From Gemmatimonadota bacterium (lineage in GTDB: Bacteria; Gemmatimonadota; Gemmatimonadetes; Gemmatimonadales; GWC2-71-9): DNA of 64,000 nucleotides. Numbering within the stretch: the stretch's first letter is position 1; every line of letters begins with the position of its first letter. The stretch is taken from the NCBI GenBank assembly GCA_009692115.1, contig SHZU01000005.1:62001-126000 (forward strand), written 5' to 3'. Both the position numbers and the translations under genes were made by a program. The notes under the pieces were generated by a model that searched no databases, was not told the DNA's origin, and saw only the letters and a program-made list of their open reading frames with translations. Shown in pieces: positions 8,636 through 22,098 of this stretch.

Positions 8636-9554
8636 TCTTCGCGACTAATCCGCCGAGAACCCTGGAACGTCTCTCTTGGCCCGCCGATCCCGATACCGGG
8701 GGCCGGCCCGGCCGACCAAGCTCCATCGGATGAAATTCGCCCCACGCCAGTCGATACGGGTCAACCAGTAACGCAACGAACCGTTCAATCGCCGAGTCAA
8801 ACGTGAACCGGCGGCGGAACTCACCCGGGGTAATCCCAAGCATGGCTCGAAGATGCCGGCCGAAGCTCTGGGGCGAGGAACACTCAAGCCGGTAGGCCAC
8901 ATCCGTGATGGAGAGGCCTTCGTTCTCGAAAAACTGGGCGGCATACACCAAGCGGATGGCCGCCATGTATGTCTTCGGCGACGGTAGTCCGGCCCTGGCA
9001 AACCGCGACACCATGGTACTGGGCCGCATTCGGGCGTGGGCCGCCAGTTGGCGCGCCACCGAGGTCGAGGGAGCGAGCCGGATCATCATCTCGAGGAACA
9101 TCCTCGCGTCCGCCGGAACGTCAGGGATCGAGTCGAGCACCCGCGCGAGAATGCGGGCGGCGGGACGGGATGCCGGTTCGGCCAGTAGTTGCCGGAGTCG
9201 CCGCCAGCCATTGGGGCCGCTGACATCCACGACGTGACGCACCCCCGTCGCCCCTAGCCGCAGGAGGGTTTCCGGTGCCGCTGGATCGGCTCGGGTCACC
9301 AGCGCCACGGTTGGAATGTCGGGGAATCGACGCACGAGGTTGTCGATGTCCTCGACCGCCTGCCCGGCACACTCGTGGACCGAGAACACCACCGCATCGA
9401 TCGGATGTTCCCGAATCACCCGCGTCGCCGCCGGCAAACTGGACCGGTGTACCACGGCAAAGCACCCGAGGCCCGCCGCATCAAGCCCCGGCCGGTCGGT
9501 TTCCGCGACCACGGCGGCGACCGTCAGACATCCTCGTTCAGGCAACATCCTCAT
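8625..9554 (-). CDS. AraC-family DNA-binding protein with a receiver-like N-terminus
   Basis: A 309-residue putative transcription regulator. The C-terminal 100 residues form a two-helix-turn-helix AraC domain, with the usual second-half pattern ITDVAYRLECSSPQSFGRHL and GITPGEFRRRF (about residues 225-260). The first 120 residues alternate hydrophobic strands and helices (AVVFSVHECAG, PTVALVTRADP) like a response-regulator receiver. I see no clear phospho-acceptor aspartate, so a degenerate receiver is possible. The effector and target genes are unknown. It converges on pyrE. Confidence 0.8.
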   Translation of the reverse strand: MRMLPERGCLTVAAVVAETDRPGLDAAGLGCFAVVHRSSLPAATRVIREHPIDAVVFSVHECAGQAVEDIDNLVRRFPDIPTVALVTRADPAAPETLLRLGATGVRHVVDVSGPNGWRRLRQLLAEPASRPAARILARVLDSIPDVPADARMFLEMMIRLAPSTSVARQLAAHARMRPSTMVSRFARAGLPSPKTYMAAIRLVYAAQFFENEGLSITDVAYRLECSSPQSFGRHLRAMLGITPGEFRRRFTFDSAIERFVALLVDPYRLAWGEFHPMELGRPGRPPVSGSAGQERRSRVLGGLVAKTTV

Positions 9555-9625
9555 TCTCCGGTTCGAAGTCTGTTCGAAGCTGCACCCGGAGGCTCAACGA
9601 AGGGTAAAATGCCGGACCCACCCAA

Positions 9626-10087
9626 ATGATTCAGATCGAGTCAAAACGCGACTGTCCTTCCGAACCGCGCATCAGGGCCTTGATCGCCGCGAGGGCAGGG
9701 GATGCGGCCGCCGCCCGAGCCCTCCTCGCCTCCCTCGGTTCCGGTGCCGGCCGAACCGGCTCCTGGGAGTGGGACGGCGACGTCCGGCCAATCATCGCGG
9801 ACACCTATTTCGAACTGGGCGACTATCCGAAGGTGATCGAGGTTTTGAAAGACTTCGCTCCGCCCAGTTTCAGTTCCCGAGGATTTGATTCGCGATGGGT
9901 CCTGCTCCCCAGGGTCCGGCTCCTCCGCGGTCAGGCCCTCGAACGCACCGGTCAATTTGCCGCGGCGGCCGGTGAGTGTCGGGCCGTCATCGACCGATGG
10001 GCCGGGGCCGATGTCGAGCTCTTGACGGTCGTGCAGCAGGCCCGGCAGCGGTTGGCCGCCGTGACCGGAACTGCCGAAGGGCGGTGA
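9626..10087 (+). CDS. TPR-like hypothetical protein, possibly a C-terminal remnant
   Basis: A 153-residue protein made mostly of alanine-rich helical hairpins in a tetratricopeptide pattern (ADTYFELGDYPKVIEVL, LLRGQALERTGQFAAAAGEC). Such stretches often form the C-terminal half of larger kinases or regulators in this group. The N-terminus MIQIESKRDCPSEPRIRAL does not look like a natural beginning, so this may be a truncated gene. No signal peptide or catalytic motif is seen. RNase P RNA follows directly. Confidence 0.55.
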   Translation: MIQIESKRDCPSEPRIRALIAARAGDAAAARALLASLGSGAGRTGSWEWDGDVRPIIADTYFELGDYPKVIEVLKDFAPPSFSSRGFDSRWVLLPRVRLLRGQALERTGQFAAAAGECRAVIDRWAGADVELLTVVQQARQRLAAVTGTAEGR

Positions 10088-10103
10088 TCCGATTACCTTA
10101 TGC

Positions 10104-10492
10104 CCCGGGGGCCGACGAGGTAGTCGCGGGGCGGGTTTTCGTCCCCGAGGAAAGTCCGAGCTCCAATGGGTAGACTGCCAGGTAACGCCTGGGCGCCGAA
10201 AGGCGACGGATCGGGCCACAGAAAACGAACCGCCCCTTGGGTTTAGGCCCACGGGGTAAGGGTGAAAAGGTGGGGTAAGAGCCCACCGCGTTGCTGGTAA
10301 CAGCAACGGCACGGTAACCCCCAGTCGGAGCAAGGCCAAATAAGCGGCGAGGTGCGACCCACACCGACCACGTCCTTCGGGACGAGCCGCGGGTAGGCTG
10401 CTGGAGGCGCCTGGTAACGGTCGCCCTAGAGAGATGACTATCCGGATGCCTTCGGGCGTCCGAACAGAACTCGGCTTACGGTCGACCCCCAA
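10104..10492 (+). ncRNA. rnpB: RNase P RNA (bacterial class A)
   Basis: The catalytic RNA that removes tRNA 5' leaders. Conserved blocks occur in order: GAGGAAAGTCCGAGCTC starting at 10147; AGGGTGAAAAGGTGGGGTAA with the L15 loop that contacts the tRNA 3' end, near 10258-10277; AGAGAGATGACTATC near 10428-10442; and ACAGAACTCGGCTTACGG near 10464-10481. Helix P1 can be formed by 10107-10116 with 10481-10490 (nine of ten pairs Watson-Crick), which sets the ends. The protein subunit gene rnpA is at 15440. Confidence 0.95.
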
Positions 10493-10530
10493 CAACCCCC
10501 TTAACGCCCAGGTTTGGACGGGGGGTTGTT
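10491..10530 (+). terminator. Perfect hairpin just 3' of rnpB
   Basis: AACAACCCCC at 10491-10500 pairs exactly with GGGGGTTGTT at 10521-10530 across a 20-base loop, without a T tract. A second inverted pair, AACGCCC (10503-10509) with GGGCGTT (10542-10548), starts in this loop, so the two helices are mutually exclusive. It is likely a terminator or 3' processing structure. Confidence 0.5.
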
Positions 10531-10594
10531 CTGGCTCTGACGGGCGTTCCAACGCGGGGCGTTCCGAGGACGTTGATCTTCTTGGAGGAAAATT

Positions 10595-11383
10595 ATGTCT
10601 GGTCGATTCATTGCCGGTGCGGTTCCGTTCGTGATTTGGGGGTCGATGGCGGCCGTCGCGCCGGAGGCCCCGAGCACCACCAAGTACCGAATCGATACCA
10701 AGCTCGAACAGATTGTCGACCTCAGCGCCATGGGGCAGGGCAATCAAACCACATCCTTTGACCAGCATGCGATCATTTCCGTGACGCTCACGGATACGAT
10801 CGGCGGGCAGATCATGCACGTCGTGATCGATAGCCTTACGTCAACGGCACCGGTCCCCCCGGAAATGATCCAAAAAGCCCAAGGCGCATGGCTGCACGGC
10901 ACGGTCGACGCATGGGGCCGGGGCAAGGTCACCGCGACCTCGGCCGATTCGAACGACATGGTGTCACAGCTGAAAGGGACGATGGCTCGCTTCTTCCCGA
11001 TCGTCAAACCGGGCGCGAAGGCCGGCGATTCTTGGCTCGATACGGCCACCGTCGACACCAAGACGCCGGCTCAGACCATGAAGTCCATGACCATCACCAA
11101 CTACACCCACGGGGGTTCGGTGACGCGTGACGGGCAGCCAGCAGCTCGGATCGATGCGGCCTCCTCGACCACCGGGGCCGGCACCATGGAAAATCCAATG
11201 GCGGGCACCATGGACGTCGAACTGAAAGACACCGCAACCAGTTCGTATTTTGTCGGATCGAACGGCCGGTTCCTCGGTGGTGAATCGTCCTCCGACGGGA
11301 AGAGTCTCGTGCGGACCCCGATGGCACCTGATCCGATCCCGGTTGTCATCAAGCGGACCACCACCATCTCCGTTGCCAAGTAA
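10595..11383 (+). CDS. Secreted hypothetical protein
   Basis: A 262-residue protein with a signal peptide (MSGRFIAGAVPFVIWGSMAA, cleavage near AVA-PEAP). The mature part is rich in Thr, Ser and short beta strands and has no cysteine. It resembles lipid-binding or beta-sandwich exported proteins (YRIDTKLEQIVDL, SVTLTDTIGG), but I cannot name a family. The start is firm: GGAGGAA lies five bases before the ATG. It is a single-gene unit between the rnpB hairpin and its own terminator at 11406. Confidence 0.75.
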   Translation: MSGRFIAGAVPFVIWGSMAAVAPEAPSTTKYRIDTKLEQIVDLSAMGQGNQTTSFDQHAIISVTLTDTIGGQIMHVVIDSLTSTAPVPPEMIQKAQGAWLHGTVDAWGRGKVTATSADSNDMVSQLKGTMARFFPIVKPGAKAGDSWLDTATVDTKTPAQTMKSMTITNYTHGGSVTRDGQPAARIDAASSTTGAGTMENPMAGTMDVELKDTATSSYFVGSNGRFLGGESSSDGKSLVRTPMAPDPIPVVIKRTTTISVAK

Positions 11384-11405
11384 GCGATTGGGTTGACGAT
11401 GTCAC

Positions 11406-11438
11406 GGCGCCCGGTTTCGTCGGCACCGGGCGCCTTCC
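11406..11438 (+). terminator. Hairpin terminator between the secreted protein and mtgA
   Basis: GGCGCCCGGT (11406-11415) pairs perfectly with ACCGGGCGCC (11425-11434) over a nine-base loop, followed by TTCC. It lies upstream of the ATG at 11441 and argues against the earlier mtgA starts at 11393 and 11399. Confidence 0.6.
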
Positions 11439-11440
11439 TA

Positions 11441-12349
11441 ATGAACCCGCCTTCGGGAGTTCCCGGACCCGGGCAACCCTCGGCCCCCAAGCGATCGCGA
11501 TTCCGTCGAATTCTGATGGCGTCACTCGTCCTCGGATCACTTTTCTGGTTTTGGATGTTCGCCGTTTGGCCTCCGCCGATTTGGTACCGCTGGAACTGGC
11601 CCCGACAAACGGCCTTCATGGCGATGCGGGGTGATCAGGCCGATAGTCTCGCCCGTCACGGGCAGCGTCGGCGCCAAGCCATCGACGGCACCCTCCCAAG
11701 GCTCTACGATCCGGTCGAGTTTGATCGAATCGCAACGGCTGTCCCCCAAGCCGTTCTGATCGCCGAGGACCACCGCTTCTTCGAGCATGGCGGGGTTGAT
11801 TTCCAGGCAATTCGACAAGCCCTTGGCTACCGCCGAGAGGATTTTGAACTGAAAGATCCCCGGGATCGGACTGAGCTTCGCCGAGTGGTTGGGGCGGCCT
11901 GGTCGCGGCGGGACCGAATCAGAGGAGCGAGCACGATTACTCAACAGCTGGCGAAAAACCTCTACCTTTCCCCGTCTCGCAACCCGCTTCGGAAGTTTAA
12001 AGAAGCCCTGACGGCCTATCGCCTCGAGATGGCGATGTCCAAGACCAGGATTCTCGAACTCTATCTGAATGTCGTGGAGTTCGGACCGGAAGTCTGGGGC
12101 GTCGAAGCCGCCGCCCAGGCCTACTTCGGCAGATCCGCTGATCGATTGACAGTGGAACAGGCGGCCGCCCTAGCCGGGTCACTTCCGTTTCCGCTCCGGT
12201 CGAATCCAGCCTTTAGATCCGGACGGATGCGGTGGCGGCAGCAATTCATCCTGCGCCGGCTGCGGGGTGAACCGATTCAGGTTCCGGACGACGGCGAACC
12301 GCCCGAAGGGAAAGAGCCGATGGAGCCCGACTCCACCAGCTCCCGATAG
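11441..12349 (+). CDS. mtgA: Monofunctional peptidoglycan glycosyltransferase
   Basis: A 302-residue GT51 enzyme that polymerises glycan strands from lipid II at the outer face of the inner membrane. It has one N-terminal membrane anchor (residues 25-45). GT51 motifs occur in order: AVLIAEDHRFFEHGGVDF with the catalytic Glu, GASTITQQLAKNLYL, RKFKEALTAYRLE, and ILELYLNVVEFGPEVWGVEA. No transpeptidase domain follows. The start at 11441 lies after the terminator hairpin, although no strong ribosome site is visible. Its stop codon abuts the dnaN stop codon on the other strand. Confidence 0.92.
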   Translation: MNPPSGVPGPGQPSAPKRSRFRRILMASLVLGSLFWFWMFAVWPPPIWYRWNWPRQTAFMAMRGDQADSLARHGQRRRQAIDGTLPRLYDPVEFDRIATAVPQAVLIAEDHRFFEHGGVDFQAIRQALGYRREDFELKDPRDRTELRRVVGAAWSRRDRIRGASTITQQLAKNLYLSPSRNPLRKFKEALTAYRLEMAMSKTRILELYLNVVEFGPEVWGVEAAAQAYFGRSADRLTVEQAAALAGSLPFPLRSNPAFRSGRMRWRQQFILRRLRGEPIQVPDDGEPPEGKEPMEPDSTSSR

Positions 12350-13456
12350 TTAATCCAACAGCCGTAAAGGCATCACCAGCGAGAGATAGCTGGCCGGGTC
12401 ATCCCAACCGACCGGTTCACAGGTCGCGGCCCGCTCTGGGGCTTTAAAGCTCATCCGGACCTCGTCGGTCGGCATGTACTTGAGCACCTCAAGCACATAG
12501 GCCGCGTTGAATCCGATTTCCAGCGGGTCGCCCTCATACGCGACCGTCATTTCCTCTTGGGCCTCGCCCAGATCTGGAGTCGTCACCGACAGCTTACAAG
12601 TCCCGTTGGCGAAGGCCATCCGAATCCGGTGGGTTTGATCGCTGGCGACGATACTCATCCGACGGAGGGCGGCCGCGAGGGCCGCTTTGTCCGCCGTCAT
12701 GATCTTGTCGTTTTCCTTGGGAATAACCTGTTCATAGTTCGGGTACGGGCCTTCGATAAGCCGGGTGTACACCTGGGTACCCGCTGATCGGAATCCGAGG
12801 TGATTGTCGCTCCGGGCGATCTCGATTTCCTCCTCGGGTTTGTAGAGCCGCCGAATTTGGTCTAGGGCTTTCGGCGGCACGATCAGGTCCGCCTGACCTG
12901 AGCCCTTCAACGGGACATCCATCCGGGCCAGTCGGTGCCCGTTCGTGGCTACCATCCGCATCCGATCGCTTCGAAGCTCCCAGAGCACGCCGTTGAGAAT
13001 CGGCCGGCTTTCCTCAGTGCTGGCGGCGAACGCCACGTGTCCGATCAGTTTCTGGAGGTCGTTGGCCGCCACTTTCCAAGCCCCTTCGAACTTAACCGCC
13101 GGGAAGGCTGGAAATTCATCACGCGAAAGCCCGAGAAGCTTGAACCGCGACCGGCCGCATTCGATTTGGACCCGCTGTTCCCCCGAGGCGGTGAACCGAA
13201 TGGCGGCGCTCGGCAGTTCGCGGACGATCTCCACCAGCTTTCGGGCTGGGAGGGTTGTAGCACCCTCCTGGTCCACCTGGGCTGGTATGATCGTACTGAC
13301 CGCAATATCGAGATCGGTTCCCGAGAGCCGAAGACCGTCTTTCGTGGCCTCGACCAAGATATTGGAGAGCACCGGCAGCGTGGTTTTGGATGGAATGCTG
13401 GCGGCAACCGCTCCAAGGCCTTCGTGTAATTTTTCCCGCGTAATCGTGAACTTCAT
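12350..13456 (-). CDS. dnaN: DNA polymerase III sliding clamp (beta subunit)
   Basis: A 368-residue processivity clamp that forms a dimeric ring around DNA. Three beta-clamp domains are visible, beginning MKFTITREKLHEGLGAVAAS, with the typical SEESRPILNGVLWEL-like stretch in the middle (ASTEESRPILNGV) and ending in the hydrophobic partner-binding surface YLSLVMPLRL. GGAGAG precedes the ATG. It follows dnaA on the same strand with a 232-base gap. recF and gyrB, often next, are replaced here by convergent mtgA. Confidence 0.97.
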   Translation of the reverse strand: MKFTITREKLHEGLGAVAASIPSKTTLPVLSNILVEATKDGLRLSGTDLDIAVSTIIPAQVDQEGATTLPARKLVEIVRELPSAAIRFTASGEQRVQIECGRSRFKLLGLSRDEFPAFPAVKFEGAWKVAANDLQKLIGHVAFAASTEESRPILNGVLWELRSDRMRMVATNGHRLARMDVPLKGSGQADLIVPPKALDQIRRLYKPEEEIEIARSDNHLGFRSAGTQVYTRLIEGPYPNYEQVIPKENDKIMTADKAALAAALRRMSIVASDQTHRIRMAFANGTCKLSVTTPDLGEAQEEMTVAYEGDPLEIGFNAAYVLEVLKYMPTDEVRMSFKAPERAATCEPVGWDDPASYLSLVMPLRLLD

Positions 13457-13688
13457 TTCGGTTTACTCTCCAGCCGGCCTCAGTTATCACCACGGGCTAT
13501 TAGAAAAGCAGTACCTATATAATAAAACAGTAGTAGTCGTAGAGAGGGTCCATTGTTGATGACCAAACCAACCCCTTATGGCTAAGCGAGTTGCTCTCCA
13601 GGCGACGTCCTCATCCTGTGTGTACAGCGGGGAAAGGTCTGAAAAACGCACCTGAATATCCCCATGATCCACACTTCACACACCCAAC
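13457..13688. other. dnaA-dnaN intergenic region with an AT-rich patch (possible origin element)
   Basis: This 232-base gap holds no gene. Bases 13511-13530 (CCTATATAATAAAACAG region) are strikingly AT-rich for this genome and are followed by TAG-TAG-TCG-TAG triplets (13531-13542), which recall DnaA-trio repeats. A DnaA-box-like TGATCCACA (one mismatch to TTATCCACA) lies at 13665-13673, and a weaker TTATCACCA near 13484. This fits an unwinding element or simply the dnaN promoter region. Perfect DnaA boxes are lacking, so the origin assignment is tentative. Confidence 0.35.
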
Positions 13689-15083
13689 TCACACGACCGA
13701 TGAGGTTAACTCCACTCGAGCGGAATCAACGCGATCCCGGAATCCCCGATCACGGGCCAACTCTCGCTGGACCTTGCCTACGCTATGAATCACGGTCGAG
13801 TGATCCCGTCCCCCAAACGCCTGCCCGATCTCGACGAGTTGCATATTGAGGACCTCCCGGGCCAAGTACATGGCGATCTGCCGAGGCACCGTGAGACTCT
13901 TGATCCGAGCCTTGGAACGGAGACCTTCCGGGGTGACCCCCCATCGTCGGGCCACTACGTCCTGCACCTTATCGATCGAGGGCAAGGCCTTGGGTCGGTC
14001 GTCACTGGTGGTTTGGCTCGGCCGGATTCGGTCGGCCAGGGCTTCGCGGGCCAGGTCGACGGAGATTTCCCGGTGCCGAAGCGAGGCATAGAGCAACAAT
14101 TTGATGATCGAGCCCTCGAGCTCGCGGACGTTCGAGTAGACATGCTCGGCAATGAACGTGAGGACGTCGTCAGGTATCGTCGTTTCGAGGTGATCTTGTT
14201 CCTGCTTCTTGCGGAGAATGGCAATCCGATGTTCGAGATCCGGCATCCCAACGTCGGCCACCATGCCCCATCCGAACCGGCTGACTAGCCGATCTTCGAG
14301 GCCGGGCATTTCTTTCGGAGCCCGATCGGAGGTCAGCACGATTTGTTTTTGGGACTCGTACAACGTGTTAAACGTATGAAAGAACTCTTCTTGCGTCGCT
14401 TCCTTACCCTCGAGGAAGTGGACGTCATCGACCAAGAACAGGTCAATTTCACTGCGATATCGTCGCCGGAGATCGGGCATGGTACGCCCGTGGATCCCTT
14501 CAATGACCTCATTGATGAAATGCTCGGCTCCAATGTAGGTCACCCGGGTCGCAGGATTCTTCCGAATGACGGCGTGGGCAATGGCCTGCATCAAATGGGT
14601 CTTGCCGAGCCCAGTGCCCCCGTAGATGAACAGCGGATTGTAGGTCCGGCCCGGGGCTTCGGCCACCGCGTAGGCGGCCGCAGCCGCGAGCTCGTTCGAC
14701 TTCCCGATGACAAAGGAGTCAAACGTGTACCGTTCGTTGAGGGGCAGGGGTGACTGGGTGGTCCGGATCGGTGCGGTGATCGGCTCGGGCGGTGGCGCCA
14801 CGAAGAAATCAATCTGGGGGCGTTGGCGCCGGTCATCCGGCACTCGAAAGCTTACCCCAACCGCATGTCCTAAAACGACTTCAGCAATCTTGGCGAGGAT
14901 AGCCGAGTGTTTGGCTTCATTCCACTTGACCGCAAATTCGTCCGGGAGCCCGAGGACGAGATTTGCCCCGTCGAAGCTGAGGGGCTCAGCCGGCGACAGC
15001 CAGGTCTCGACCGCTTGCTCGGTGAGCTCGCGCCGGGCCTCATCGAGGATCCGTTTCCAGACGTCTTTCGGGGACAACGGCAT
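13689..15083 (-). CDS. dnaA: Chromosomal replication initiator DnaA
   Basis: A 464-residue AAA+ initiator. Domain I (residues 1-80) starts MPLSPKDVWKRILDEARREL. Domain III has Walker A GGTGLGKTHL, Walker B IDLFLVDDVHFLEGK and the arginine-finger region near RDLVSR (LEDRLVSRFGWG). Domain IV carries the DNA-binding signature GQAFGGRDHSTVIHSVGKV near the C-terminus. Length and order are normal. Its promoter overlaps a DnaA-box-like site, suggesting autoregulation, and is back-to-back with the rpmH promoter. Confidence 0.98.
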   Translation of the reverse strand: MPLSPKDVWKRILDEARRELTEQAVETWLSPAEPLSFDGANLVLGLPDEFAVKWNEAKHSAILAKIAEVVLGHAVGVSFRVPDDRRQRPQIDFFVAPPPEPITAPIRTTQSPLPLNERYTFDSFVIGKSNELAAAAAYAVAEAPGRTYNPLFIYGGTGLGKTHLMQAIAHAVIRKNPATRVTYIGAEHFINEVIEGIHGRTMPDLRRRYRSEIDLFLVDDVHFLEGKEATQEEFFHTFNTLYESQKQIVLTSDRAPKEMPGLEDRLVSRFGWGMVADVGMPDLEHRIAILRKKQEQDHLETTIPDDVLTFIAEHVYSNVRELEGSIIKLLLYASLRHREISVDLAREALADRIRPSQTTSDDRPKALPSIDKVQDVVARRWGVTPEGLRSKARIKSLTVPRQIAMYLAREVLNMQLVEIGQAFGGRDHSTVIHSVGKVQRELARDRGFRDRVDSARVELTSSVV

Positions 15084-15124
15084 TTCGCCTCGAATACAGA
15101 TCAGGGGTCTAGCGAAGGGGGACG

Positions 15125-15153
15125 ATCTTACGGCTGGCGTGTGGAAAAGTCAA
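15125..15153 (-). promoter_or_regulatory. dnaA promoter containing a DnaA-box-like site
   Basis: On the minus strand, -35 TTGACT (15148-15153), a 17-base spacer and -10 TAAGAT (15125-15130). TTTTCCACA (15140-15148), one mismatch from the consensus DnaA box, spans the end of the -35 element and the spacer. Bound DnaA would block this promoter. Confidence 0.55.
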
Positions 15154-15155
15154 CC

Positions 15156-15185
15156 TTGACCGAAGCCGGATAGAGCCGCTATCTT
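15156..15185 (+). promoter_or_regulatory. rpmH operon promoter
   Basis: -35 TTGACC (15156-15161), an 18-base spacer and -10 TATCTT (15180-15185), about 30 bases before the rpmH start. The -35 hexamer forms a short palindrome (GTCAA-CC-TTGAC) with the divergent dnaA -35 element. Confidence 0.5.
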
Positions 15186-15215
15186 CCCGGGCTCACTTGA
15201 AGTGTTGGGGATTCT

Positions 15216-15377
15216 ATGCAGCCGTCATATCGCCCGCGGAATCGTAAGCGGGTCAACAGGCATGGTTTCCGGGCCCGGATGGCAACTCGCTGGGGTCGGG
15301 CTACGCTTGCGCGCCGACGTAAGAAGGGCCGCAGGAGCTTGACCATTTCGATTCCGTCCAAGCACGGCGGGAGCTGA
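15216..15377 (+). CDS. rpmH: Ribosomal protein L34 (bL34)
   Basis: A 53-residue basic protein of the large ribosomal subunit: [20 protein letters not shown], then [19 protein letters not shown] and a short C-terminal extension ([10 protein letters not shown]). The RKRVxxHGFRxRMxT pattern is typical of L34. A G-rich stretch (TTGGGG) precedes the ATG. It heads the rpmH-rnpA-yidD-yidC-mnmE cluster, the standard neighbourhood of dnaA. Its 3' end probably overlaps the true beginning of rnpA. Confidence 0.95.
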
Positions 15378-15439
15378 CGACCTCCGAGGGTTTTGCCCGA
15401 CGGCTTCGCCTGGCGTCGCCCAATGACGTCCGGCGAGTA

Positions 15440-15727
15440 ATGAGTCGGGGCCGGCGCCACCGAACGACGCACCTCGAAATCGCTTGGCTAGTGAATGATG
15501 CGGGCCATCCAAGACTGGGATTGATCGTCCCGAAGTTCCAGTCGAATGCGGTGGCCCGTAATCGTTTGCGGAGGCAGTTGAAGGAAATTTGGCGGCGGGG
15601 GGGACTACCGCACTTAGGGCCGATCGACATTGTGGTACGGACCCGGCCGGCGACGTACACGGCACGGCCGAGTGACCTCAAAGCCGAGGTGCTCGGATGG
15701 GTGCAATCAAAGACGCCGGGGTCTTGA
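15440..15727 (+). CDS. rnpA: RNase P protein component
   Basis: The small basic protein that assists RNase P RNA in tRNA 5' maturation. The RNP signature is visible as [16 protein letters not shown] after [18 protein letters not shown] 15440 is the first canonical start but would cut off the usual N-terminal strand: the same frame is open from 15323 and encodes [16 protein letters not shown], which matches the expected segment. No ATG, GTG or TTG exists there; CTG codons occur at 15374 and 15410. The true start is therefore probably upstream, at a non-standard codon overlapping rpmH. Its 3' end overlaps yidD by 31 bases. Confidence 0.88.
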
Positions 15728-15954
15728 CCGCGGTCTTTCAGTGGCCGCGTCGGGGTGGCGCGGCACTGATTCGCGGGTACCAGCGGTTCGTATCGCCCGC
15801 CTTTCCGCCCCGCTGTCGCTTCAGTCCCAGTTGCTCGCAGTACACACTCGAGGCGGTGGAACGTTATGGATTGGTTCTCGGGATTTGGTACGGGCTCAAG
15901 CGGCTCGCCAAGTGCCATCCGTTCCATCCGGGTGGGTATGATCCACTCCCTTAA
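15697..15954 (+). CDS. yidD: Membrane protein insertion efficiency factor YidD
   Basis: An 85-residue YidD-family protein, usually found between rnpA and yidC and thought to help membrane protein insertion. The core [20 protein letters not shown] then [15 protein letters not shown] carries the conserved cysteines, and the tail has [14 protein letters not shown]. It starts inside the 3' end of rnpA. Yid-family gene order supports the call. Confidence 0.94.
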
Positions 15955-15978
15955 TCCCTAGAACCCTCGGCGCCGACC

Positions 15979-17688
15979 ATGGATCGTCGATTCGTCTTGG
16001 CCATCGTCTTGATGATGGTCGTCTTGATCGTGCCGCCGCTGTTTCTCAAGAAACCCGTGCGCCCGGTGGCCAAACCGTCGGTGACCACAGTCACCCCGGT
16101 TGCCGAATCACCCGTGGCCTCGACGCAGCCGGTGCTGACTCGTCCAAGTCTTGCCCCTTCCGATCCGGGTACGACCGGTTACGCGGAGGACACGGTTGTC
16201 GTCCAATCCGCTTTGTATCAGTACCGGTTTTCGACGCGAGGCGGGCGGCTCGTGGGAGCGGCTCTGAACGACTATCGGTCGATGCGGAAAGACGAAAAGG
16301 GCCAGCGACTCGAGATGTTCGGGCCAGCCAGCCAGTTTCTGTCCCTGTCCTTGCTGGTCGGCCGGGATACGGTGTCGCTGTCGAACCTGCTTTTCCGCCC
16401 CTCCGCCCCGCAACTGGACGTCACGGCTGGGGCCGAGCCGAGCCGACTCACGTTTTCGGCGACGATCGACAGCACGCTGGCGCTCGACTTGACCTACGGG
16501 TTCACTCCCAAGGACTATCGGATCGATGTCCGTGGTTCGGTACGGGGCCTTGGGCCGACCGGCGGCACGTTGCTCATCGGGATGGGCCCCGGGCTTCGCA
16601 ACACCGAATCGGACAGCGTCGAGCACTCACGTGAAGTCGGGGTCGTGACCCGTAATGCCAGTTCCGAGCTGACCCACTTCGCGAAACTGAAGCCCGGCGA
16701 GCCCACCCTGTTAAATGGACCGTTCCATTGGGTCGCGCTCAAGTCCAAATACTTCGTGACGGGCGTCCTCGCGTCTGACACCGGCCGGGCGCCGCCGGGA
16801 CGGCTGGGCGGCGTGTCGGCGTTGACGAACGATCGGACCCATGGGACGCCGGAATGGGCCGATGTCTCGACCAGTGTCGGCATCGGGCCGAACGGCGATA
16901 TCGGTTTTTCGCTGTATGTCGGACCGATGGAATACCCCAGGCTCCAAGCCCTCGGTCATGGCTTTGACGACGTCAACCCCTATGGCTGGGCCTGGCTTCG
17001 GCCGGTGATCCGACCGGTGGCTGTTGGAGCTCGGTGGCTTTTGGTCTGGCTCCACGAGAAAATTGGCTTGGCGTACGGATTGGCCCTGGTGGTGTTCGGG
17101 GTCGGCATCCGATTGGTACTCTGGCCGCTCAACCAGCGCGCCATGCGGGCCAGTATGGCGATGCAGGCCATTCAGCCGGTCCTGAAAGAGATTCAAGACA
17201 AGCACCAGAAGGATCCGCAACGCCTTCAGCAGGAAATGTTCAAGGTCTACAAGGAAAACAACGTCAACCCGTTCAGCGGTTGTTGGCCGGTGTTACTTCC
17301 GTGGCCGATCCTGATCGCGCTGTTCTTCGTGTTCCAGAACTCGATCGAGCTTCGGGGCCAAGCGTTCCTGTGGGTCCCGGATCTATCGCGGCCGGACCCC
17401 CTTTACATCATCCCGGTTCTGATGGCGGTGTCGATGTTCGGCGTCACCAAGATCGGCCAAATGGGAATGCCGGTAAATCCCCAGATGAAGATGATGCTGT
17501 ACTTCATGCCGATCATGATGTTGGTGTTGTTTTTGAATTTCGCATCAGGGCTCAACCTGTACTATGCGGTTCAGAACCTGGCCAGCATTCCCCAGCAATG
17601 GCTGGTGGCGCAAGAACGGGTGCGACGGTTGCCGCCGACTCCGCCGGCAACGCCGTCCGTTCAGGCCAAGGGTATGTCCAAGCGCTGA
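15979..17688 (+). CDS. yidC: Membrane protein insertase YidC
   Basis: A 569-residue inner-membrane insertase that works alone or with SecYEG. The N-terminal membrane anchor (FVLAIVLMMVVLIVPPLFL) is followed by a Pro/Val/Thr linker and the large periplasmic beta domain (about residues 70-330). The five-helix insertase core begins near WLLVWLHEKIGLAYGLALV and contains NQRAMRASMAMQAIQPVLKE, the conserved cytoplasmic helical hairpin, and later FMPIMMLVLFLNFASGLNLY. Length is normal for the Gram-negative form. It lies 24 bases after yidD. Confidence 0.97.
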   Translation: MDRRFVLAIVLMMVVLIVPPLFLKKPVRPVAKPSVTTVTPVAESPVASTQPVLTRPSLAPSDPGTTGYAEDTVVVQSALYQYRFSTRGGRLVGAALNDYRSMRKDEKGQRLEMFGPASQFLSLSLLVGRDTVSLSNLLFRPSAPQLDVTAGAEPSRLTFSATIDSTLALDLTYGFTPKDYRIDVRGSVRGLGPTGGTLLIGMGPGLRNTESDSVEHSREVGVVTRNASSELTHFAKLKPGEPTLLNGPFHWVALKSKYFVTGVLASDTGRAPPGRLGGVSALTNDRTHGTPEWADVSTSVGIGPNGDIGFSLYVGPMEYPRLQALGHGFDDVNPYGWAWLRPVIRPVAVGARWLLVWLHEKIGLAYGLALVVFGVGIRLVLWPLNQRAMRASMAMQAIQPVLKEIQDKHQKDPQRLQQEMFKVYKENNVNPFSGCWPVLLPWPILIALFFVFQNSIELRGQAFLWVPDLSRPDPLYIIPVLMAVSMFGVTKIGQMGMPVNPQMKMMLYFMPIMMLVLFLNFASGLNLYYAVQNLASIPQQWLVAQERVRRLPPTPPATPSVQAKGMSKR

Positions 17689-17715
17689 TCCGGCGCAACG
17701 ATCGGTGGTGGTGAT

Positions 17716-19041
17716 GTGCTTTCCGATCTGATTGCGGCGCTGGCCACTCCGCCGGGCCGCTCGGCACTCGCCGTGGTTCGGCTGTCGGGACTCGGGGCCT
17801 TCGACGTGGGGCGTCGGGTTCTTTGTTGGCCAGATGACCGCCTGATTCGGGCCCGGCAGGTCGAACTGGCCACGGCTTATAGCCCGTCGGGCCATCCCGT
17901 CGATCAACTCATGGTCACGTTCTTCCAGGCTCCTGCCAGCTACACCGGTGAAGATCTGGTGGAGTTCAGTTGTCACGGGGGTTTACTGGTCCCGGCCCAA
18001 CTACTCGGCGTCCTGTGCGAAGCCGGGGCCCGCCTTGCCGGTCCCGGGGAATTCACCCGCCGAGCGGTCCTGAACGGCAAAATCGATTTGCTCCAGGCAG
18101 AGGCTGTGGGCGACCTCATCGACGCCACGACCGTCGCGCAGGGTCGCGGCGCCCTGCGGCAGCTTGACGGAGGATTATCCCGCCGCCTCGAGGTCCTTCG
18201 GTACAACCTGACCGACCTCCTGGCCCTCCTCAGCTATGACTTGGACTTTCCAGAGGAAGACGACGGGCCGGTGGAACGAGCCACTGTTCTGGGTGGCTTG
18301 GACGCCGTTGTTGACGCGATTCGGCGCTTGTTGGAGACCGCCCTGATCGGCGAGCGGGTCCGGCGGGGCGCGTTGGTCGTCCTGGCCGGACGTCCGAACG
18401 CCGGCAAATCGTCGCTATTCAATGCGATGCTTGGATCGGAGCGAGCCCTGGTCAACGAAGCCCCCGGCACCACCCGCGACACCATCGAGGCGGACCTCGA
18501 CTTGACCGGCTGGCCGATTCGGCTTGCCGACACGGCCGGCCTCCGACCGTCCGCGGATCGGATTGAGCAGATGGGCATCGAGGTAAGCCGGCGCTACTTG
18601 GCGGCAGCGGACCTGGTGTTGCTCTGCGTCGAGGCGGGTCGTGCCCTCAATGCGGAGGAAGCGGCTCTAGCTGCCGATCCGCGCACGTTGTTGGTTCGAA
18701 CCAAGGCCGACCTTGCCTCGAGCCCGGGGTTGGCAATCTCAGCGAAGAGTCGGGTCGGGTTGGAGAGCCTCAAAACCGCGTTGGTCAGCCGATTGTTCGA
18801 GGGCAGCCAACCGCTTGGTGATTTCGAACCAATGTTGACCCGGGAACGCCACCGAGTGTCGCTGGAAGCTGCGCTCGCCGCGCTCGGGGACGCGAAGCCT
18901 CATCTTGCCCCCACGGGCGACGCGGTTCTAGTCGCCCATCACGTTCGCCGGGCGGTTGCTTCGTTGGATGAACTCATTGGGGCTATTGATGTTGAAGAGG
19001 TACTTGGCCTGATCTTCTCTCGCTTTTGCGTCGGGAAGTAA
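17716..19041 (+). CDS. mnmE: tRNA uridine-5-carboxymethylaminomethyl GTPase MnmE
   Basis: A 441-residue tRNA-modifying GTPase that works with MnmG on U34 of several tRNAs. The N-terminal folate-binding domain runs to about residue 115, then a helical domain. The embedded G domain shows GRPNAGKSSLFNAM (G1), GTTRDTIEADL (G2), DTAGL (G3) and TKAD (G4). The C-terminus ends FCVGK, matching the conserved C-(I/V)-GK tail with the catalytic cysteine. The start codon is GTG. mnmG is not adjacent here. Confidence 0.96.
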   Translation: MLSDLIAALATPPGRSALAVVRLSGLGAFDVGRRVLCWPDDRLIRARQVELATAYSPSGHPVDQLMVTFFQAPASYTGEDLVEFSCHGGLLVPAQLLGVLCEAGARLAGPGEFTRRAVLNGKIDLLQAEAVGDLIDATTVAQGRGALRQLDGGLSRRLEVLRYNLTDLLALLSYDLDFPEEDDGPVERATVLGGLDAVVDAIRRLLETALIGERVRRGALVVLAGRPNAGKSSLFNAMLGSERALVNEAPGTTRDTIEADLDLTGWPIRLADTAGLRPSADRIEQMGIEVSRRYLAAADLVLLCVEAGRALNAEEAALAADPRTLLVRTKADLASSPGLAISAKSRVGLESLKTALVSRLFEGSQPLGDFEPMLTRERHRVSLEAALAALGDAKPHLAPTGDAVLVAHHVRRAVASLDELIGAIDVEEVLGLIFSRFCVGK

Positions 19042-19063
19042 ACCCAAGAGTCGGCAGCGCCAC

Positions 19064-19258
19064 TCAGGGCCGGTTGTGCGATCCGTCGCAGAAGGGCTTC
19101 GACAGACTCCGCCCGCAGGCGCAGAGCTTGACCGTTCCGGGGGCCTTGTTGTTGACCGGAGGCGTCAGGAGGTTGCCCTCAGAATCCCGAATCTCGATCT
19201 GGCCCTGAATTAGGTACGGGCCGTTTGGCCGGACCGCGATGGTGGTGGGGTCGGTCAT
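19064..19258 (-). CDS. CDGSH iron-sulfur domain protein
   Basis: A 64-residue protein with a single CDGSH domain, CACGRSLSKPFCDGSH near the C-terminus, giving the three Cys and one His ligands of a 2Fe-2S cluster. The preceding part (RPNGPYLIQGQIEIRD) matches the companion strand region of bacterial CDGSH proteins. I placed the start at 19258, where GAGG lies five bases upstream and overlaps the stop of the protease gene. Role is unknown: redox or iron-sulfur handling. It is the last gene of the operon. Confidence 0.88.
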   Translation of the reverse strand: MTDPTTIAVRPNGPYLIQGQIEIRDSEGNLLTPPVNNKAPGTVKLCACGRSLSKPFCDGSHNRP

Positions 19259-19265
19259 CTCATCC

Positions 19266-20210
19266 TCAAGCGGTTCGGACGTCACGGGCCGCGTCATCGG
19301 CGGCCTCGAAGGCGGCGGCGGGCATCCGGATAGCAGTCCGCAGGCCGTGCTCGGCTACCATGGCCTCGACCATTCGGTAGCCCAGGTAGTAGCCCGACCG
19401 CTCCGGGAGGACCCGACCCAGGGCCAAGCGGGCGCCCGGTGTCATTCCGCCGGACAGAAAACGCAGCCGGAGACCGATCCCGGAGCGGTCGAGATCATGG
19501 TGAGCGGCCCGTCGGATGAACGACTCGAACTCCCGCATCCGCTGAAACTGCCGTTTCGGATATCCGAAGTAGTCGGAGAGGTCGTGTCCGGGTGCGAGGA
19601 CTCTTGAGGCGTGAACAGCCAAGCCCTCGTTGACGAGGTGCTCCCGGAGCGGTGCCCGGCCCGCGGCCACCCAGTAGTCGTAATACCCGCCGTTGTCGGC
19701 CACTAGTTGCCGGAGACTGCTTTCGCTCGTTGGCGAGGTGTAACGCACCGTGTGGGCCAACTCATGGGCCACCCACAGTGGAATCAATTCCGGCGAGAGG
19801 CCGAGCCCAAAGGTGGTGGGATTGACCTTGCCGGTAAAATGCTCAACGCAGATGAATGCGGCGCCACGACCGTTGACCACGAGCTCACCCGCGTTCGCGG
19901 CGCCGACCCCGACCATGAGATAGACGTCTGTCGGGCGGTCGATGCCGAGGGCATCGGTGGCACGCTCAATCGTTTCCTCGACTTGCTGAGAGATCTTGAC
20001 GGTTTGCAGCAAGGCCTTCAGGTCGGTTCGATCGGCGCGAAGCGTGGTTGCGATGACCTCCGCTGCGTGCGGGCTTTCGAGGTCGAGGACGTAGTTGCCC
20101 CAATAGGCCGACAGGATGGCGCGATGCGACTCCAGATACCGATAGTAGGCGGCTTCCCGATTGGACGAAGCGAGGATGTCGAGAAAATCTGGGAGGAGGT
20201 TGATGAGCAC
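19266..20210 (-). CDS. Putative zinc metalloprotease (DUF2268-like)
   Basis: A 314-residue protein with the zinc-binding motif HELAH (in VAHELAHTVRY, about residue 170) and, downstream, NEGLAVHASRV, which supplies the likely third ligand Glu. This arrangement matches predicted Zn-dependent proteases of the DUF2268 type. No signal peptide or membrane segment is seen, so it is probably cytoplasmic. Its substrate is unknown. It lies between the rhomboid-like gene and the CDGSH gene, in the same operon. Confidence 0.72.
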   Translation of the reverse strand: MLINLLPDFLDILASSNREAAYYRYLESHRAILSAYWGNYVLDLESPHAAEVIATTLRADRTDLKALLQTVKISQQVEETIERATDALGIDRPTDVYLMVGVGAANAGELVVNGRGAAFICVEHFTGKVNPTTFGLGLSPELIPLWVAHELAHTVRYTSPTSESSLRQLVADNGGYYDYWVAAGRAPLREHLVNEGLAVHASRVLAPGHDLSDYFGYPKRQFQRMREFESFIRRAAHHDLDRSGIGLRLRFLSGGMTPGARLALGRVLPERSGYYLGYRMVEAMVAEHGLRTAIRMPAAAFEAADDAARDVRTA

Positions 20211-20260
20211 GGCACAGAATACGGCAGTCGTGTAGTAAAAATCAAGATGGCAAGGCGAAT

Positions 20261-21085
20261 TCAGTGCTGTTCGCGCCGCTTTCGCTCCGATGCGTCGCCC
20301 AAAACCTTCCGCTCCTGGAACGTGAGGCTGTCAATGCCGAGCTGGGCAATCTTGTCGAGGACTTGATTTACCTCCTCTTCCTTCGCCTCATGGCGGCGAT
20401 GATCTGCCGGAGCCGTAGGCTCCCGCTCCGAGGCCGCTTCCCGCATTCGCATGGGTGTGACGACGGGGCGGCGGGCCATCGGGATCGGTCGAGCGGTCGG
20501 CTGGCGGCTCGCCCGGGTCTGAAGGCGAAAGAAGACGTACCCGGCGAGGGCGCCGCCGAGGTGGGCGAGGTGGGCGACGCCACCGGTCCCCGCCAAACCC
20601 ACGGCAATGTCCAGGGCGATCAGGCCACAGAAGAGAGATCCGGCCTTGATCGGGACCGCCCGAATCTCAGCGGCGGGCCACAGGAGCACACAACCAAGAC
20701 CGACGCCGAAGGTGGCCCCGGCCGAGCCGGAAAACGGATCGACACGAACTAAGGCCGCGAGTCCCAGGGCGAGAAGAGCGGCGCCGACCCCACAATAGAG
20801 GTAACTGGCAAGGAACCGGGCCCCGCCGAGCCGACGCTCGACCGGCGACCCGAAAAGGGAAAGGACCAGACTGCTCAGCGCGAGGTGAAAGATGTTGTCG
20901 TGAACGAAGATATAAGTGAGCGCCGTCCACGGCCGGGCGGAGAATCCTTCGGGGTCGAACTGCAGCGCCGCGAAGAACCGGGGAGCGGTGAATACGGTCG
21001 CCAACAACACCCAGACCACCCCGTTGAAAACGATCAATCGGGTGACCCAAGGGGTCAGTCTGGCGGTCCGGCCGTCTTCCTTCAC
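20261..21085 (-). CDS. Rhomboid-family membrane protein, probably catalytically inactive
   Basis: A 274-residue protein with the six-helix rhomboid core (residues 15-190) and a charged cytoplasmic tail (residues 190-274). The second-helix motif is FVHDNIFHLALSS, where active enzymes have H-x-x-x-N; here the Asn is Ser71. The helix-4 motif is GSAGATFG (120-127): the catalytic Ser of GxSG is Ala122. The helix-6 motif AHLGG with His175 is retained. Loss of the nucleophile and oxyanion Asn suggests a pseudoprotease of the iRhom kind. Start is GTG, overlapping ddl by four bases. Confidence 0.85.
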   Translation of the reverse strand: MKEDGRTARLTPWVTRLIVFNGVVWVLLATVFTAPRFFAALQFDPEGFSARPWTALTYIFVHDNIFHLALSSLVLSLFGSPVERRLGGARFLASYLYCGVGAALLALGLAALVRVDPFSGSAGATFGVGLGCVLLWPAAEIRAVPIKAGSLFCGLIALDIAVGLAGTGGVAHLAHLGGALAGYVFFRLQTRASRQPTARPIPMARRPVVTPMRMREAASEREPTAPADHRRHEAKEEEVNQVLDKIAQLGIDSLTFQERKVLGDASERKRREQH

Positions 21086-22098
21086 GATCTAACCTTACCA
21101 CGACCTATCGCGGCGAGGCAAATCCGCTCGCAAAGATCAGGGAAGTCGATTCCGGCGGCCCGGGCCGACTGGGGCATTAGACTGGTTGCCGTCATTCCGG
21201 GCAGGGTGTTCACCTCAAGGCAACTGAGCTCCCCGGCAGGGGTAAGCCGGAAATCGACCCGGCTATAGCCTCCCAATTTCAGGGCCTCGTGAGCGGCCAG
21301 CCCGAACGCCTGGCATTGGGCGACGATCCCTGGGGGCAAGTCGGCCGGAAAAATCTCTTCGGCCATTCCCGGGGTGTATTTGCACTCATAATCGAAGATC
21401 TCGTGCCGAGGGATGATCTCACCAACTGCCAGGGCCTTGCCGTCCAGAATCCCGATGGTCAGCTCTCGGCCTGGCACGAAGGTCTCGAGCATCACCTCGT
21501 CGTCGTACTGAAAGGCGAGGCGGATCGCCTCCCCAAGGTCCGCCGGATTTTTGACGACACTGAGCCCGACCGTAGAGCCCTGTTTACTTGGCTTGACCAC
21601 CAGGGGCCATCCGAGCCGGTCACCAAGGCGCTCCCGGGTCATGGGGGCCATCACCCAATCGGCGGTTGGAATCTGGGCCGATCGGAACAGTTTCTTGGCG
21701 AGGTCCTTGTCCATGGCCAAGCCGCTGCCAAGAGCGCCACTCCCCGTGTATGGAACTCCCATGACATCAAGCACGGCCTGAATGGTCCCGTCCTCGCCCC
21801 GGCCGCCGTGGAGGGCAAGGAACAGCACCTCCGCGTCGCGGACGACCGGAAGCCCGGCCAAGCCTGAGAGGAGGAGGCCCCGCTCGAGATCGGTCAGCTG
21901 CTGGTTGGATGGAGGTGCGACGCCGACCGCGGTGACGAGGAGCTTCGACTCGGCGGCCTCCGGAACGAAGCCGCGAGCGGTATCGACGACCGCCACGACG
22001 TGACCGCGGCTCCGGAGTGCCGCAACGACCTGTGCCGCCGAGGCGACCGCCACGTCGCGTTCGGCGGAAGTGCCACCCGTCAGGACGGTGACTTTCAT
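21082..22098 (-). CDS. ddl: D-alanine--D-alanine ligase
   Basis: A 338-residue ATP-grasp enzyme that makes the D-Ala-D-Ala end of peptidoglycan precursors. The N-terminus MKVTVLTGGTSAERDVAVAS has the conserved GGxSAERxVS motif. Then LALHGGRGEDGTIQAVLD, the ATP-grasp loop VVKPSKQGSTVG, and the metal/substrate region SRVDFRL and LEVNTLPGMTATSL. I prefer ATG 22098 over a GTG at 22110. It overlaps the rhomboid gene by GTGA. Confidence 0.95.
   Translation of the reverse strand: MKVTVLTGGTSAERDVAVASAAQVVAALRSRGHVVAVVDTARGFVPEAAESKLLVTAVGVAPPSNQQLTDLERGLLLSGLAGLPVVRDAEVLFLALHGGRGEDGTIQAVLDVMGVPYTGSGALGSGLAMDKDLAKKLFRSAQIPTADWVMAPMTRERLGDRLGWPLVVKPSKQGSTVGLSVVKNPADLGEAIRLAFQYDDEVMLETFVPGRELTIGILDGKALAVGEIIPRHEIFDYECKYTPGMAEEIFPADLPPGIVAQCQAFGLAAHEALKLGGYSRVDFRLTPAGELSCLEVNTLPGMTATSLMPQSARAAGIDFPDLCERICLAAIGRGKVRS

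Follow-up and report, generated by a model that had tools for sequence, protein, structure and literature searches.

A conserved, compact pair of back-to-back dnaA and rpmH promoters in Gemmatimonadota, with a DnaA box likely to serve dnaA autorepression

The window analysed in this work is a 64,000 bp stretch of the genome of a Gemmatimonadota bacterium (contig SHZU01000005.1; 3.1 Mb in 23 contigs), in which dnaN and dnaA are located on the minus strand and rpmH, rnpA and yidD on the plus strand. Pfam matches confirm the products DnaN, DnaA, L34, RnpA and YidD. dnaA (13689-15083, minus strand; Bac_DnaA 3.8e-69, Bac_DnaA_C 2.7e-26) codes for a protein that carries its DNA-binding domain (Bac_DnaA_C). 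rpmH, coding for ribosomal protein L34 (15216-15377, plus strand; Pfam 1.2e-16), is transcribed in the opposite direction and is followed by rnpA, coding for the RNase P protein (15440-15727, plus strand; Pfam 1.3e-15). An Rfam search of positions 9000-22000 at gathering scores found RNase P RNA (RNaseP_bact_a, 284.9 bits) at 10107-10494 on the plus strand and no other structured RNA. As this gene lies about 5 kb from rnpA, both parts of RNase P are encoded near the probable replication origin.

The dnaA-rpmH intergenic region is 132 bp long. It includes two divergent promoters of the sigma-70 type, and the spacer of the dnaA promoter contains a single consensus DnaA box. On the minus strand, the dnaA -35 hexamer TTGACT (15153-15148) is separated by 17 bp from the -10 hexamer TAAGAT (15125-15130), which is followed by a GC-rich discriminator (15119-15124) and a predicted start at about 15118. 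On the plus strand, the rpmH -35 hexamer TTGACC (15156-15161) is separated by 18 bp from the -10 hexamer TATCTT (15180-15185), followed by another GC-rich discriminator (15186-15191) and a predicted start at about 15192. The two starts, predicted from the -10 hexamers, are thus 74 bp apart. The initial annotation described the -35 hexamers as forming GTCAA-CC-TTGAC, two bases apart, and this arrangement is indeed present at 15149-15160, with the CC gap at 15154-15155. The DnaA box that it placed within the dnaA promoter is there as well: TTTTCCACA at 15140-15148 on the minus strand is a perfect match to TTWTNCACA, the only strict one in 64 kb, and overlaps the dnaA -35 hexamer by one base (15148). 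A near-invariant GG is located downstream of the dnaA -10 at 15116-15117 (55 of 56 relatives at each base), corresponding to CC at about +2/+3 of the predicted transcript.

Scanning of positions 13400-16000 for promoter-like sites has found just the dnaA and rpmH pair, while shuffled sequences gave a mean of 1.0 (sd 1.0), so the scan by itself proves nothing. One strict DnaA box is close to what is expected for the window (1.01), the expectation for a 132 bp intergenic region being about 0.002. It is conservation that shows the pair and the box not to be accidental. The composite element TGTGNAWAAGTCAANNTTGAC was found in 53 of 395 Gemmatimonadota genomes, one copy in each, whereas the reversed pattern had no match in the same 395 genomes, and a chance origin was rejected on these grounds. 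The carriers belong to 26 of the 138 genera sampled: 50 of the 81 genomes of the family of the window (f1), three of the seven of the sister family f3 and none of the other 307. The comparison with sister genomes proposed in the initial annotation therefore shows a conserved element, confined to families f1 and f3.

For a closer comparison, 154 distinct dnaA-rpmH intergenic regions were used (69 from f1, 6 from f3, 32 from family f2 and 47 more distant). Of 277 genomes with rpmH matches, part was included. Five of 61 genomes (G012, G028, G031, G038, G049) had no usable dnaA start and were left out; of 60 genomes representing the class and phylum, 58 had a DnaA match and 50 of these were included. 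Duplicate intergenic regions were dropped, as were seven loci whose stretch includes no divergent rpmH (L054, L055, L115, L242, L254, L255, L256), of which L054 and L055 begin at a contig end and stand outside the counts for the 154 regions. The 2 bp gap between the -35 hexamers is present in 56 of the 75 f1 and f3 regions when either TTGAC or TTGCC is accepted (50 in f1, 6 in f3, with three more f1 regions at 3 bp), or in 49 f1 and five f3 regions with TTGAC only.

In these 56 regions both -35 hexamers are conserved by column, the two gap positions are C in 55 and 56 of them, and a -10 is found on each side in 54 (TANNWT for dnaA, TANNTT for rpmH). The strict box is present in 51 of the 56 (missing in five) and in 69 of all 75 f1 and f3 regions. 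The eight box columns that fall in the dnaA spacer carry 1.74-2.0 bits, compared to at most 0.95 bits in the other nine columns of this spacer and at most 0.69 bits in the 18 columns of the rpmH spacer. Since the box columns are conserved while the remaining spacers drift, the box appears to be maintained for its own sequence, independently of the promoter, and the persistence of the -10s on both sides suggests that the hexamers are kept as promoter elements. Each of the two divergent promoters proposed initially is thus separately conserved. The box is not indispensable, as 6 of 72 regions placed on a DnaA tree lack a strict box and retain the dnaA -35.

Both discriminators are GC-rich, with a mean GC of 0.90 for dnaA and 0.81 for rpmH in the 56 regions, compared to 0.54 for control 6-mers from the same intergenic regions. 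This would be in line with parallel growth rate control of the two promoters, as described for E. coli dnaA p2 (PMC5835720). In this reading, (p)ppGpp lowers both via their discriminators and the adjacency only saves space. However, the rpmH spacer is itself 0.74 GC, which makes the rpmH signal weak, and the DnaA box is left unexplained. We regard parallel stringent control as a tentative but serious possibility, and it is compatible with autorepression of dnaA by DnaA.

GTCAA-N2-TTGAC can also be read as an operator of a dimeric repressor instead of two -35 hexamers, being a perfect 5 bp inverted repeat that is nearly invariant in the 56 regions. This reading was rejected, and we consider it scarcely credible, as the two halves also occur separately, with promoter spacing between each half and a -10, both in split f1 regions and in many regions of other families. 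The back-to-back core is found in none of the 32 f2 and none of the 47 more distant regions. Spacing patterns recovered both halves with a gap of 30-51 bp in 9 of the 32 f2 regions and of 13-1246 bp in 34 of the 47 distant ones; for the others, where the patterns did not find two halves, "separated" means that the back-to-back core is absent and nothing more. A fused unit of strict box and dnaA -35 is present in 22 of the 32 f2 regions and 17 of the 47 distant ones, and absent from the other 10 and 30, respectively.

The history of the arrangement was examined using a DnaA tree of 92 sequences. This is a single-gene tree obtained quickly, in which long branches are flagged and the support of some forks is below 90. 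It holds 72 of the 75 f1 and f3 regions; three with inserts (L053, L056, L058) had too little DnaA. All six f3 members and two f1 groups of 12 and 24 members are back to back, f2 and the outgroup are not, and all 13 "separated" f1 members on the tree fall within one f1 group of 30. The simplest story for this distribution is a single joining of the two promoters in the common ancestor of f1 and f3 followed by splitting in some lineages, apparently by inserts of 14-569 bp. Of 16 "separated" regions, L216 and L218 are not real splits, as their gaps are just 3 and 5 bp, with a changed rpmH -35. Long inserts lie between the promoters in the remaining 14 regions and measure 14-569 bp in 13 of them, the exception being L056, where no rpmH TTGAC could be recognised. 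All 14 retain an intact dnaA half, while the strict box and the rpmH half are each retained in 13. Survival of the halves and of the box on either side of the inserts speaks for two independent promoters, with the box as a component of the dnaA one. When four of the inserts were folded, two (L062 and L056, between the -35s) gave long hairpins, with no shuffle control for this observation; they are possibly small mobile or repeat elements. In one further relative (G043, single contig of 4,636,964 bp; L055/L268), TGTGGATAAGTCAA is located at dnaA and the rpmH promoter is distant.

The likely function of this arrangement is autorepression of dnaA: two ordinary housekeeping promoters abut at their -35s, and DnaA at the box probably blocks dnaA transcription, closing a negative feedback loop. 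DnaA on the perfect box would cover about -30 to -22 of the dnaA promoter and should exclude RNA polymerase from it, and repression of dnaA by its own product would then close the loop on the DnaA level. The same DnaA molecule would lie at about -52 to -44 of the rpmH promoter, outside its hexamers, where it could hinder, help or do nothing. The rpmH-rnpA promoter most likely runs separately, perhaps under growth rate control, and may be tuned by competition or by DnaA bound nearby. A polymerase at one promoter may well hinder a polymerase at the other, and the initial proposal that only one can bind at a time is plausible given the 74 bp between the predicted starts. What speaks for autorepression is sequence-level evidence: the box and the promoter elements are present and conserved, and the box and -35 unit is found also where the promoters are apart. 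The initial claim that DnaA represses dnaA thus stands as far as the position of the conserved box and the precedents are concerned, the repression itself being a prediction.

DnaA is reported to repress its own gene in several bacteria, and autoregulation by binding at the dnaA promoter is reported in E. coli, B. subtilis, Vibrio harveyi, Streptomyces lividans and slow-growing mycobacteria, while boxes at dnaA of Pseudomonas putida are reported to have given no autorepression (PMC8203912). In E. coli, dnaA and rpmH are divergent, as here, and a DnaA box is found at dnaA, where it is described as lying between two dnaA promoters, with a discriminator in p2 (PMC5835720). In contrast to the window, several sites are described at E. 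coli dnaA in the same review, compared to a single box here; there are two dnaA promoters, and dnaA is separated from rpmH by 606 bp that include the annotated ysdD. The strict box of E. coli at L197:3940-3948, presumably the one described, is 258 bp away from the sole promoter-like -35 on the rpmH side (4206). Another parallel concerns the arrA promoter in the dnaA-rpmH intergenic region of B. subtilis, which, as here, has DnaA sites in the -35 region and the spacer and is described as repressed by DnaA in vitro, with a longer transcript continuing through rpmH (PMC12112137). Unlike the promoter studied here, it is described as the separate promoter of a regulatory RNA, antisense to the dnaA leader and downstream of PdnaA (PMC12112137).

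The initial annotation went further and suggested that DnaA bound at the box would free rpmH. In this form, the two polymerases exclude each other, and DnaA at the box silences dnaA and hands the site to rpmH-rnpA-yidD. Such a two-way switch is possible, but the comparative evidence does not support it, and we find it unlikely. It would fit the 2 bp gap in 56 of the 75 f1 and f3 regions, the spread of the composite over 26 of 138 genera, the 74 bp between the predicted starts and the constancy of the gap on the tree outside one f1 subclade. Against it, the fused box and -35 unit exists without the adjacency in other families, long inserts are tolerated in that one f1 subclade, and the box stays with dnaA in 13 of the 14 regions with such inserts. 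Nor is the gap clearly better protected than the leaders. On the tree it departed from 2 bp at least 4 times, with only three possible insertion sites. For comparison, at least 33 changes in length were counted for the dnaA leader (66 regions, 38-55 sites) and at least 36 for the rpmH leader (70 regions, about 22-32 sites). Gap changes per site are therefore not rarer than leader changes, which leans against a strong constraint on the adjacency. Gap deletions are not expected among the regions compared, as they would mostly damage a hexamer.

A further observation against the reciprocal switch was made in the genus g8, where two of three genomes (G297 and G251; loci L264 and L267) have CTTTCCACA or CTGTCCACA directly after TTGAC of the rpmH promoter. 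This TCCACA-type site is one and two mismatches away from the strict box and lies in the register of the dnaA box. In the third g8 genome no match to this site was found, and neither were its dnaA start and rpmH. A box-like site in the rpmH promoter would mean co-repression, which is the opposite of a reciprocal switch.

Back-to-back promoters are also known from lambda PR/PRM, which are about 82 bp apart. Exclusion between polymerases has been proposed for the divergent Pc and Pr promoters of the plasmid pLS20, whose core promoters overlap with a regulator site at the overlap and where polymerase was modelled as unable to occupy both (PMC4207663). The promoters of the window resemble this case in that their cores abut, with 2 bp between the -35s. 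Unlike here, the pLS20 promoters are described as serving conjugation genes, with a dedicated regulator that activates one side and with DNA looping (PMC4207663). Opposed polymerases can also compete for one site at the bidirectional promoters described by Warman et al. (PMC12825309). In contrast to the window, these share a -10, and their starts are mostly 18 bp apart (commonly 10, 18 or 23 bp), whereas the pair studied here has separate -10s, abutting -35s and starts predicted to be 74 bp apart. According to the same paper, five E. coli bidirectional promoters that were tested had a basal activity too low for competition to matter, and such clashes are said not to affect separate divergent promoters (PMC12825309). 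The strongest form of the switch, namely that a deletion in the ancestor of f1 and f3 locked both promoters into a mutually exclusive unit in which one box sets the two outputs oppositely, seems to us quite unlikely.

The probable unwinding core of the replication origin lies on the other side of dnaA, in the dnaN-dnaA intergenic region (13498-13542, plus strand, or up to 13560 when drawn more widely), where an AT-rich stretch is followed by TAG-TAG-TCG-TAG, resembling DnaA-trios. The TAG repeats are conserved in an alignment of 38 f1 and f3 loci, a GC-skew minimum is nearby, and many relatives have CTAGTAGTAGTAGTAG followed by a TGTGGA-type site there. In none of 30 loci do the 420 bp beside dnaA contain a strict DnaA box, and instead of a cluster of boxes, as in an oriC, the 64 kb window has one strict box. 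This box, which lies some 1.6 kb away from the core, might be part of a split origin instead of a repression site, since bipartite origins are described (PMC4285127). This is very unlikely, as there is only one box, it is locked to the -35 register and it is lost in 6 of 72 regions.

Strict boxes were also counted over whole genomes. The genome of the window has 16, compared to 29 matches of the reversed pattern, and the 61 f1 genomes together have 1096, compared to 1601; strict boxes are fewer than reversed matches in 52 of these genomes, more numerous in eight and equal in one. As the reversed pattern is a rough control, this is a hint that strict boxes are avoided in f1 genomes. For E. coli K-12, 307 consensus boxes are given in a figure legend of a review (PMC5835720). 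With few strict boxes in the genome and none in the 420 bp beside dnaA, the dnaA promoter may carry the strongest DnaA site in the vicinity of the origin. Another strict box TTTTCCACA, followed by TTCTCCACA, was noticed at L262:980-1010, upstream of a gene resembling recA by eye, and might be a LexA site instead of a DnaA box.

Outside the group, 76 named stretches upstream of dnaA, from records not labelled Gemmatimonadetes, were inspected. They are the best 80 from a list of at least 592 candidates, minus four Gemmatimonadetes loci. In this set, a strict box occurs somewhere in 65 stretches and a divergent rpmH within the flank in 50, and neither a fused box and -35 nor a back-to-back core was found in any of the 76. 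In the open-access literature searched, as far as its text was accessible, no description of abutting dnaA and rpmH promoters was found.

Overall, the arrangement is real, conserved and compact. As regards self-control of dnaA, it resembles a well-known type of feedback loop, made unusually compact. A consensus DnaA box is located at the dnaA promoter, and strict boxes are missing from the flank in which the origin probably lies. How replication initiation is tied to growth is an old question, and if the reciprocal switch were true, this single site would link DnaA occupancy directly to the output of the replication initiator versus that of ribosomes and RNase P, and so initiation to growth. 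The promoter pair is very small, and its natural variants range from joined to 3 or 5 bp apart and to split by long inserts, with or without a strict box. As these variants are ready-made, the influence of competing polymerases on the control of dnaA is directly testable.
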